Of a stretch of DNA of 64,000 nt, positions 51,406 through 54,125 are shown piece by piece. Source of the DNA: Bacteroidota bacterium (GTDB lineage Bacteria > Bacteroidota > Bacteroidia > 2-12-FULL-35-15); assembly GCA_947449315.1 (NCBI GenBank), contig CANFRC010000002.1, positions 124,001 to 188,000 on the forward strand, read 5' to 3'. Numbering within the stretch: position 1 is the stretch's first letter; every line of letters starts with the position of its first letter. Position numbers and translations under genes: made by a program. The notes beneath the pieces were generated by a model. It was not told the DNA's origin, did not search any database, and saw only the letters and a list, made by a program, of their open reading frames with translations.

Positions 51406-52614
51406 ATGAAAAACGCATACATAATTGATGGGGTTCGTACTCCAATCGGAAATTTCGGTGGAACATTATCAGCAATTCGAACAGATGACTTGGCTGCAAT
51501 TGTTTTGAAAGAATTAATAAAACGCAATCCAACTATTGACCCGAAGCAAATTGGTGATGTATTGTTAGGTTGTGCTAATCAAGCAGGTGAAGACAATCGT
51601 AACGTAGCGCGGATGGCATTGTTGTTAGCCGGTTTGCCCTATCAGGTTCCTGGTGAAACAGTGAATCGTTTGTGTGCTTCTGGATTATCTGCATCAATGG
51701 CTGCTGCCAGAAGTATTATGATCGGTGAAACTGATCTAATGATAGCTGGTGGGGTTGAAAATATGACGCGTGGACCTTTGGTAATTTCCAAAGCTTCTTC
51801 AGCTTTTGGTCGCGATCAACAAATGTTTGACTCAAGTTTTGGTTGGAGATTCATCAATCCGAAAATGAAAGAATTATATGGTGTGGATGGAATGGGGGAG
51901 ACTGCAGAAAATTTAGCTGACAGGGATAACATTTCGAGAGAAGATCAGGATAAGTTTGCTGTGTGGTCTCAACAAAAAGCAACAGCTGCTCAAAATAAAG
52001 GGCGATTTGAAAAAGAGATTGTTGTTGTTCAAATTCCACAAAAGAAAGGTGATCCGAAGATCTTTGATAAAGACGAATTCATTCGTCCTGAAACAAGTAT
52101 GGAAGGATTATCGAAATTAAAAGGCGCATTTAAAAAAGATGGTGGAACGGTTACCGCAGGAAATGCATCCGGTTTAAATGACGGAGCTGCGGCAATTTTG
52201 TTCGCATCCGATGAAGGAATAAAAAAATACGGACTTGTTCCAAAAGCAAGAATTGTTTCAAGCGGCGTTGCAGGTGTTGAGCCACGAATCATGGGTATTG
52301 GCCCTGTAGAAGCCAGTAACATGGCTTTGAAACGAGCAGGATTGACAATGAAAGATATTGATATCATTGAATTAAATGAAGCATTTGCTGCTCAATCATT
52401 GGCTTGTACAAGAGCGTTTGGTATTGCGGATAATGATTCAAGAATTAATCCAAATGGCGGAGCAATTGCATTAGGGCATCCTTTAGGGATGAGTGGTGCA
52501 AGAATTTTGAATTCTGCAGCCATTGAATTGCAGGAACAAAATAAACGTTATGCGCTTGTCACAATGTGTATTGGTGTTGGACAAGGGTATGCAGTAATTA
52601 TTGAAAAAGCATAA
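51406..52614 (+). CDS. paaJ: 3-Oxoadipyl-CoA thiolase PaaJ
   Basis: 402 residues. Cleaves 3-oxoadipyl-CoA to succinyl-CoA and acetyl-CoA, the last step of phenylacetate degradation. Cys90 in NRLCASGLSA is the nucleophile. ELNEAFAAQ, GGAIALGHPLGMSGAR and Cys388 in CIGVGQGYAVII complete the active site. The ALLLAGLPYQVPGETVNRLC and VENMTRGP segments are those of the beta-ketoadipyl thiolase group. Two bases separate it from paaY. Confidence 0.94.
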   Translation: MKNAYIIDGVRTPIGNFGGTLSAIRTDDLAAIVLKELIKRNPTIDPKQIGDVLLGCANQAGEDNRNVARMALLLAGLPYQVPGETVNRLCASGLSASMAAARSIMIGETDLMIAGGVENMTRGPLVISKASSAFGRDQQMFDSSFGWRFINPKMKELYGVDGMGETAENLADRDNISREDQDKFAVWSQQKATAAQNKGRFEKEIVVVQIPQKKGDPKIFDKDEFIRPETSMEGLSKLKGAFKKDGGTVTAGNASGLNDGAAAILFASDEGIKKYGLVPKARIVSSGVAGVEPRIMGIGPVEASNMALKRAGLTMKDIDIIELNEAFAAQSLACTRAFGIADNDSRINPNGGAIALGHPLGMSGARILNSAAIELQEQNKRYALVTMCIGVGQGYAVIIEKA

Positions 52615-52616
52615 AA

Positions 52617-53207
52617 ATGATATACGAATTCAACGGTTACAAACCAGTCATTCACGAAACTGCATTCATTCATCCGAATGCATGTGTTACAGGAAATGTG
52701 ATCATCGGAAAAAATGTATATGTTGGTCCCGGTGCTGCAATCCGAGGCGATTGGGGGCAAATCATTATTGAGGATGGATGTAATATTCAGGAAAATTGTA
52801 CGATACATATGTTTCCTGGTACAACCGTTTTGTTAAAAGAAGCAGCGCATATAGGTCACGGTGCAATTATTCACGGTGGAACAATTGGTAAAAATGTGTT
52901 GGTAGGAATGAATGCTGTTGTAATGGACAATGTAGTGATTGGTGATAATTGTATCATCGGTGCTTTGTGTTTTGTTCCCGCAGATACAATTGTTGAAAAC
53001 AGAAAAGTTGTCGTGGGTAATCCTGCAAAAGTGGTGAAAGAAGTAAGTGATGAAATGATCGAATGGAAAACACAAGGAACAAAATTATATCAACAACTGC
53101 CGGATGATTGTAGAGCAACGTTAAAAGAATGCGAACCATTAAGAGAAGTAGAAGCAAACAGACCAAAGCAACAGGATATTTATAAAACCTGGAAGCAAAC
53201 AAAATAA
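52617..53207 (+). CDS. paaY: PaaY gamma-carbonic-anhydrase-like hexapeptide protein
   Basis: 196 residues forming a left-handed beta helix of hexapeptide repeats (NACVTGNVIIGKNVYVGPGAAIRGDWGQI) with a C-terminal helix. Zinc ligands are the His of IHMFPG and the two in HIGHGAIIHGG. PaaY is reported as a thioesterase that helps recycle CoA in phenylacetate degradation. The spacing (2 bases after paaJ and 2 before the next gene) shows tight coupling in the operon. Confidence 0.9.
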   Translation: MIYEFNGYKPVIHETAFIHPNACVTGNVIIGKNVYVGPGAAIRGDWGQIIIEDGCNIQENCTIHMFPGTTVLLKEAAHIGHGAIIHGGTIGKNVLVGMNAVVMDNVVIGDNCIIGALCFVPADTIVENRKVVVGNPAKVVKEVSDEMIEWKTQGTKLYQQLPDDCRATLKECEPLREVEANRPKQQDIYKTWKQTK

Positions 53208-53209
53208 CT

Positions 53210-53665
53210 ATGAACTTACATTTACATTTTATATTAGTCAATTCAGAATTCAATCAAGGATTGGCAGCCGATCTATATGAAGGTCAAGAGTCGGAAGATA
53301 ACATCAAGCACTTATGGGAAGATGAATTTAAGGTGTCTGAGCCAATCAAAGAATTCAAGATAAAAAATAATGCTACTTATACATTAGCAGGGTATTTTCC
53401 TGATGACAAACCTTTTAGTTTCGAAATTTGGGATATGACTGTAGTTGATTGTGTTACTGAAAGTGATAAAAAAATGCAATTTGCAGTCTCCAAAAAATTA
53501 GTTAAAAAAACGGAAAAAGTAGTGCATGAAAAATCAAATGAAACACATATGTTTTTTTATTTGAAGGATGTAATGCCTATGGAAAATCCAATGAACGGGG
53601 TTTATATTTTAAAATCAGATTTTCCTAAAGAATTAAAAAAACAAAAAAGTCCTTCTAATGAATAA
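53210..53665 (+). CDS. Unknown protein in the paa operon
   Basis: 151 residues, acidic-to-basic mixed, no signal peptide, no membrane segment. It begins with a strand-rich portion (NLHLHFILVNSEFNQGLAADLYEG) followed by PDDKPFSFEIWDMTVVDCVTES and a Lys-rich helix. I do not recognise a family. It starts 2 bases after paaY and overlaps the next gene by 8, so it is co-translated with the pathway genes, which is the only hint of function. Not a known PAA enzyme. Confidence 0.75.
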   Translation: MNLHLHFILVNSEFNQGLAADLYEGQESEDNIKHLWEDEFKVSEPIKEFKIKNNATYTLAGYFPDDKPFSFEIWDMTVVDCVTESDKKMQFAVSKKLVKKTEKVVHEKSNETHMFFYLKDVMPMENPMNGVYILKSDFPKELKKQKSPSNE

Positions 53666-54125
53666 TAGCACAGATAAATTAAATTTTATTAGTGTCGTCT
53701 TTCCGAAATTATTACAAAATTTAGATGCCGATGCTAAAGGGGGTTGGGGTGTTTTAAACGGCCAACAAATGGTAGAGCATATGGCAGATTCAGTAAGAAT
53801 GGCTTCAGGTAAGAACAATCAAAAATTACATACAGCTCCTGATTTGGTTGGCAGATATAAGGATTTTGCAATGAGCGATAAAGAATTTAAGCCGAATACT
53901 CCTAATGCTTTAATGCCGGATATCCCTGCGCCAAAAGTAAACGCTACGATGCAGGAAGCGATCAATGAATACAATGATCAGATAGCTGCATTTATCCACT
54001 ATTTTGAAAAGAACACAGAAGCTATCATTACTAATCCGTTCTTTGGTGATCTGAATTTTGAAGAGTGGACGCATTTATTGCATAAGCATGCTTTACATCA
54101 TTCAAAACAATTCGGATTGTTATAA
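53658..54125 (+). CDS. DinB-like/DUF1569-type helical protein in the paa operon
   Basis: 155 residues. VLNGQQMVEHMADSVRMA near residue 35 and EEWTHLLHKHALHHSKQFGLL at the C-terminus place histidines as in DinB-like four-helix bundles that bind metal and sometimes a thiol. The family is DUF1569-like by pattern. From memory, some Bacteroidota PaaZ-type proteins carry a similar segment at their C-terminus, so this may be a stand-alone version; this needs a search. It overlaps the preceding gene by 8 bases and ends one base before a convergent gene, with no terminator. Possible roles are thiol transfer or CoA handling. Confidence 0.75.
   Translation: MNNSTDKLNFISVVFPKLLQNLDADAKGGWGVLNGQQMVEHMADSVRMASGKNNQKLHTAPDLVGRYKDFAMSDKEFKPNTPNALMPDIPAPKVNATMQEAINEYNDQIAAFIHYFEKNTEAIITNPFFGDLNFEEWTHLLHKHALHHSKQFGLL

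Follow-up and report, generated by a model that had tools for sequence, protein, structure and literature searches.

The window analysed here is a 64,000-nucleotide stretch from a Bacteroidota bacterium and belongs to a draft genome of 2.6 Mb. It contains four consecutive genes, paaJ, paaY and two uncharacterised genes whose products are referred to as P1 and P2 (Table 1). All four lie on the forward strand with gaps of 2, 2 and -8 bases, as a previous sequence-only reading of the window had reported, and judging from this spacing they are probably co-translated. A promoter and terminator scan gave results at chance level. The frame after P2 (54127-54636) is on the opposite strand, and therefore P2 is the final gene of the cluster. 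The region after P2 (54127-60793) contains genes for a 169-aa protein, a 1482-aa protein that is alpha-2-macroglobulin-like by eye and, also by eye, a DEAD-box-like helicase. The gene order 3' of P2 is repeated in several loci of the genus (e.g. L067, L070, L072, L073, L075, and L076).

Table 1 Features of the paaJ-paaY-P1-P2 cluster in the window
Feature	Position	Strand	Remarks
paaJ, thiolase gene	51406-52614	+	assigned by frame and spacing; name taken from the sequence-only reading; 2 bases 5' of paaY
paaY	52617-53207	+	NCBIfam PaaY, 241.5 bits, E 5e-72, below the cut-off of 319.6
P1, 151 aa, unnamed nearly all-beta family	53210-53665	+	no Pfam or NCBIfam match over cut-off
P2, 155 aa, DinB/YfiT (STL) superfamily	53658-54125	+	Pfam DinB_2, 27.6 bits (cut-off 24.8)
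P2 H41, first predicted metal ligand, second helix	53778-53780	+	position from the translation; ligand role predicted from BstA
P2 H144xxxH148, HxxxH of the last helix	54087-54101	+	present in 88/88 domains; ligand role predicted from BstA

The same reading placed paaZ outside the window, and the genome agrees: PaaZ is encoded ~45 kb away from P2 on the contig that carries the window (G000:C2:221783-223807). This PaaZ has 681 residues, spans the whole two-domain model and is unfused, with no additional domain. Its gene adjoins a gene of the enoyl-CoA hydratase family.

Both P1 and P2 recur in the order, which comprises 36 genomes of one genus. P1 is present in 34 of them and in all 26 of the better ones. 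PaaA and PaaZ (E up to 1e-80) are present in 31 genomes each, and a close P2, defined as E < 1e-40 and counted from the match table, in 22. We read 33 loci of the genus (the window and L067-L098), excluding from the counts matches below 50% identity as well as the L091 and L097 matches to paaA, paaC, paaH, and paaJ. The commonest neighbour of P1 is paaY (29 of 33 loci). P2 is found in 19 of the 33 and its place in the operon is conserved, since no gene intervenes between P1 and P2 in 16 of these 19. In the other three (L067, L072, and L081), one gene encoding 522-541 aa lies between them, the L067 copy of which has a TonB C-terminus as well as MORN repeats. Compared with the window copy, mean identity is 88% for paaY, 77% for P1, and 65% for P2. 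Among the 11 ordinary pairs tried, the ratio of nonsynonymous to synonymous changes is 0.012-0.054 for P1 (eight pairs) and 0.045-0.154 for P2 (six pairs with defined dS), indicating purifying selection on both, with P2 the less constrained of the two. The genus-wide recurrence and the purifying selection together indicate that P1 and P2 are real genes.

The presence of P2 changes six times on the tree of P1 and PaaY, and some of the absences are contig ends (L071 and L090). Nine of the 36 genomes carry PaaA and PaaZ without a close P2 (G395, G400, G402, G404, G412, and G417-G420), and seven of the nine are at least 96% complete. Neither PaaA nor PaaZ was detected in the genome search of G396 (76% complete) and G424. 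These two genomes keep P1 near paaE and paaG, at L091 and L097, respectively, and G396 keeps P2 as well. The P1 ratio for this single pair, one member of which is the incomplete G396, is 0.138, which is above the eight other pairs and still purifying. A second full-length PaaA is encoded in G397, G404, G425, and G428, each on another contig or at a distant place.

P2 is a protein of the DinB/YfiT (STL) superfamily with a DinB-type four-helix bundle. It exceeds the curated cut-off of Pfam DinB_2 and matches Pfam DUF1569 at 15.9 bits, below the cut-off of 21; neither an aldehyde dehydrogenase nor a MaoC domain was found in P2 by the family scan. The sole match in a sequence-profile search of solved structures is TTHA0303/TT2238 (2yqy; E 0.012). 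The predicted model is a helical bundle (pLDDT 88.8, pTM 0.86). A Foldseek search with this model returns a YfiT-like protein at the top (E 8.4e-3, probability 1.00; no match below 1e-3), and the 14 top-ranked entries are YfiT/DinB-like proteins, mycothiol enzymes or related helical bundles. In a second structural comparison, 2nsf scores highest (Z 9.5, rmsd 2.7, 117 aligned), TT2238 (Z 8.9) and ClbS (Z 8.4) come within about 1 Z unit of it, and mycothiol S-transferase (6.9), BstA (6.5) and further DinB proteins score lower; the higher rows are DinB-fold, and Z below about 13 is weak for helical bundles and can reflect shared arrangement only.

Residues H41, H144, H147, H148, and Q151 are invariant in 88 of 88 P2-type domains and K143 is conserved in 87; E40 is variable among the unlinked relatives. 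The HLLHKHALHH end of P2, which had been singled out from the sequence as a possible metal site, indeed includes the HxxxH motif known from a superfamily of metal-binding proteins. P2 is a probable metal-binding helper protein.

To place P2 in a wider context, we searched a sample of 395 genomes of the phylum. A P2 relative is present in 123 of them, PaaZ in 85, and both in 41 (odds ratio 2.6, p 2e-4, kinship ignored). In 13 of the 85 PaaZ-bearing genomes, the P2 relative is fused to PaaZ itself as its C-terminal domain. The 13 fused frames encode 833-856 aa, belong to two families only (f4 and f5), and match P2 over the last ~140 residues. Two of them, scanned whole, contain Aldedh and MaoC, and in one DUF1569 is just below the cut-off. 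When the third domains are scanned alone, DUF1569 is matched by nine of the 13 with E no higher than 0.1, and at least one of them exceeds the cut-off. In a profile comparison, genus P2 and the fused domains match with a probability of 99.7%. Homology to the C-terminus of PaaZ-type proteins, which the sequence-only reading had named as support for a PAA link, is thus found for P2 in 13 genomes, and in two more a P2 copy directly precedes paaZ on the same strand (G033, gap of ~150 bases; G383, ~55 bases). In G126, a P2 copy is divergent from paaG-paaI-paaY. Fusion or adjacency of P2 and PaaZ is observed in 15 genomes versus ~0.18 expected from random placement (with 1.5 P2 relatives assumed for each genome, a target of 12 kb and a genome size of 4 Mb), a figure that overstates independence because the 13 fusions may represent one event.

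A tree was built from 88 domains, including 19 of the 22 close genus copies and leaving out weaker matches, five loci encountered in duplicate, and additional distant copies from genus genomes (L128-L135). In this tree, the genus copies of P2 fall together with the three PAA-adjacent ones plus an unlinked copy from the same family (G300; support 99/83). The PaaZ-fused domains form one group with weak support (60/96). A single origin for all PAA-linked P2 copies is neither shown nor rejected (AU p 0.107). No description of a PaaZ-DinB or PaaZ-DUF1569 link was found among open-licence papers and, as far as that literature shows, the link of PaaZ to a DinB-type domain is not described in print. 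The fold family of P2 is a known one, its pathway setting a new one.

P2-type domains have another partner as well. In G088 (L106:9078-10811) and G312 (L020:1498-3231), HMG-CoA reductase carries one at its C-terminus. The fusion protein has 577 aa (Pfam E 4e-95 for the reductase of the G088 copy), and its DUF1569/DinB-like domain has the same histidines, indicating that PaaZ is not an obligatory partner.

We tentatively propose that P2 is an accessory of the PaaZ ring-opening step, a metal- and thiol-dependent member of the STL superfamily whose chemistry we infer. P2 would be the free-standing counterpart of the third domain that is fused to PaaZ in two other families of the same class. It would use a low-molecular-weight thiol, in Bacteroidota likely bacillithiol, and would act as a trap or an isomerase for the reactive intermediate at the PaaG-PaaZ step, a CoA-bound epoxide, oxepin or semialdehyde. 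The substrate site of the PaaZ-DinB fusions would be supplied by PaaZ. The DinB_2 match, the confident model and its DinB-fold structural matches, the histidines of the predicted metal triad in 88 of 88 domains, which follow the BstA-H pattern, the fusion or adjacency to PaaZ, the profile and tree ties of genus P2 to PAA-linked copies, and the bacillithiol genes of Bacteroidetes count in favour of this proposal; the relatives in PaaZ-less genomes, the PAA genomes lacking P2, G396, the unfused PaaZ 45 kb away, the HMG-CoA reductase fusions, the possibility that the PaaZ fusions are one event, and the modest Z values count against it. The metal, the thiol, the substrate and the reaction are all predictions. 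An excerpt of PMC5815605 describes two-domain STL enzymes in which thiol transfer falls to the DinB domain and the choice of substrate probably to its partner domain, and an excerpt of PMC6282198 reports that bacillithiol genes occur in Bacteroidetes, with mycothiol genes only in Actinobacteria. Taken with the placement of P2 downstream of paaY and of its relatives at PaaZ, this precedent and this distribution make P2 a likely user of bacillithiol or a similar thiol.

The PaaZ step is a branching point. The intermediate at this step is able to undergo rearrangement to a CoA compound with a seven-membered ring, and this compound inhibits PaaZ, according to portions of PMC13186573 and PMC6739347; tropone natural products are fed by a shunt product of the pathway, according to a portion of PMC8283759. 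If the proposal is correct, Bacteroidota would possess a so far unrecognised means of protection or control, namely a dedicated metal- and thiol-dependent domain at the PaaZ step, and a concrete role would be available for a DinB/DUF1569-like domain of unknown function. The natural PaaZ fusion makes the accessory-domain idea directly testable. The alternative oxepin-CoA hydrolase of PMC9007349 was considered and set aside, being an enoyl-CoA hydratase unrelated to P2. Of the roles suggested in the sequence-only reading, handling of reactive intermediates is a plausible one for P2, and no result here speaks to recovery of CoA.

It is possible, if doubtful, that P2 is not an enzyme at all and instead serves as a structural or regulatory module, a metal-stabilised bundle that aids the assembly or stability of PaaZ or of another CoA enzyme such as HMG-CoA reductase. 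Such a module would account for fusion of the P2-type domain to two unrelated CoA-thioester enzymes, and P2 is dispensable in part of the genus. However, the metal triad and Q151 are retained in every one of the 88 domains, which is beyond the needs of a purely structural part.

The sequence-only reading held that homologues found mostly away from paa genes would speak against a PAA link. Taken literally this is the case for P2, as 82 of the 123 genomes with a P2 relative have no PaaZ; the PaaZ fusions and adjacent copies stand on the other side. The same wide distribution raises the possibility, which we regard as unlikely, that P2 is a general detoxifying STL enzyme and owes its operon place to chance or to convenient expression. 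Consistent with such a role, even the commonest neighbour family is seen in no more than 7 of the 69 P2 loci outside the genus. However, 15 genomes with fusion or adjacency against the ~0.18 expected, and the correlated presence of P2 and PaaZ (kinship again ignored), argue for a tie to PaaZ. In three genomes of one family (L101, L103, and L105), a gene near P2 encodes a 189-aa protein that we take to be methionine sulfoxide reductase B-like.

P1 is a separate conserved protein, found in two unrelated kinds of neighbourhood, that the genus keeps beside paaY. None of the 44 members has a convincing match in Pfam (best E 0.017), and a search of PHROGs gave nothing useful. The predicted model is nearly all beta (pLDDT 89.3, pTM 0.79). 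The best Foldseek match among solved structures has E 0.47, and the best in a second structural look, CooT (Z 4.9, rmsd 2.2, 59 aligned), is too weak to use. The fold searches of solved and viral libraries gave nothing convincing, the rows near Z 2 being unrelated folds.

A scan of species genomes yielded 53 P1 loci, of which 33 are of the genus type (66-85% identity), 17 have 44-50% identity, and two from Flavobacteriales have 35-37%. In the 17, P1 lies directly 5' of one group of large-protein genes. The large proteins are GH92 and GH20 in the two examples scanned, where MFS, asparaginase, and GH2 mannosidase are also present, and the other 15 loci were assigned by similarity to these two. 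A similar MFS gene is upstream of P1 in 14 of the 17. At L267-L282 and L284, the P1 relatives immediately precede genes of GH92 or GH20 type, usually with an MFS permease gene ahead of them, and in some of these loci genes for asparaginase, a protein that is presumably CutC-like, and GH2 mannosidase follow; the loci look like clusters for N-glycan use. In total, 17 of the 21 distant P1 loci are in glycan-degradation-like clusters. In the two Flavobacteriales, P1 is directly 3' of a paaY-like gene, no other paa gene is recognised in the locus, and PaaA is encoded elsewhere in both genomes. In L265, P1 has 64% identity and no paa gene is seen nearby, and in G041 it lies between a LETM1-like gene and what is by eye an ABC transporter gene. 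Within the phylum sample, P1 is found in 2 of 395 genomes by profile search and in 3 of 395 by single-sequence search, one of the three being a weak match with three internal stops.

Co-occurrence of P1 with the pathway was considered and set aside. PaaA is present in 20 of 20 distant-P1 genomes tested (covering all of the 21 loci but L269), yet it is also present in 83 of the 87 genomes of the order to which one of them belongs (81 over the cut-off). Since PaaA is near-universal in this control order, its co-occurrence with P1 carries no weight. P1 is not dedicated to the PAA pathway and is probably an accessory protein rather than a PAA-specific enzyme. The link to the pathway that had been suggested for both genes is a good guess in the case of P2 and a poor one in the case of P1, whose relatives outside the genus are largely in glycan-degradation-like surroundings, although the two Flavobacteriales again have P1 behind a paaY-like gene. 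That P1 and P2 form one dedicated two-gene PAA unit, as the sequence-only reading implied, is very unlikely: the two are adjacent in 16 of 33 genus loci and one gene apart in three more, and P1 follows the paaY-like gene in two Flavobacteriales, but P1 occurs without P2 in 14 of the 33 (contig ends in some cases), genomes in which no P1 was found have P2 relatives that are fused to PaaZ or adjoin it, the distant P1 loci have their glycan-related setting, and G396 and G424 keep P1 with PaaA and PaaZ undetected.

Returning to P2 as an accessory of PaaZ, a broader picture can be drawn, more speculatively. The PAA pathway of Bacteroidota might include an extra, undescribed thiol-dependent enzyme of the STL fold, either as free P2 or as the third domain of PaaZ, that handles ring-opening intermediates, and P1 might found a new all-beta family common to glycan-degradation clusters.

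Compared with known systems, P2 resembles the third domain of PaaZ in 13 genomes and differs from PaaZ in having no aldehyde dehydrogenase or MaoC domain. The PaaZ-fused domains match Pfam DUF1569, whereas P2 itself is below the cut-off of this family. The top structural match, the mycothiol-dependent maleylpyruvate isomerase 2nsf, also serves aromatic degradation, and the isomerase option for P2 is modelled on it, the trap being the alternative. However, P2 has 8% identity to 2nsf and 155 residues versus 240, and its host belongs to Bacteroidota, whereas mycothiol genes are reported only from Actinobacteria in the excerpt of PMC6282198. The STL bacillithiol transferase BstA (5wk0) has a fold like that of P2 (Z 6.5, rmsd 3.6, 121 aligned, a Z at which helical bundles may share arrangement only). 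In the excerpt of PMC5815605, the only fully conserved residues of BstA-H from B. subtilis are three histidines (H67, H160, and H164), and EDTA abolishes the activity, indicating metal dependence. P2 has the same three-histidine pattern, with HxxxH spacing in both cases. Unlike BstA-H, P2 has relatives fused to or beside PaaZ, its identity to 5wk0 is 7%, and its thiol transfer is a prediction. The PaaZ-DinB and HMG-CoA reductase-DinB fusions fit the two-domain STL enzymes described in that excerpt.
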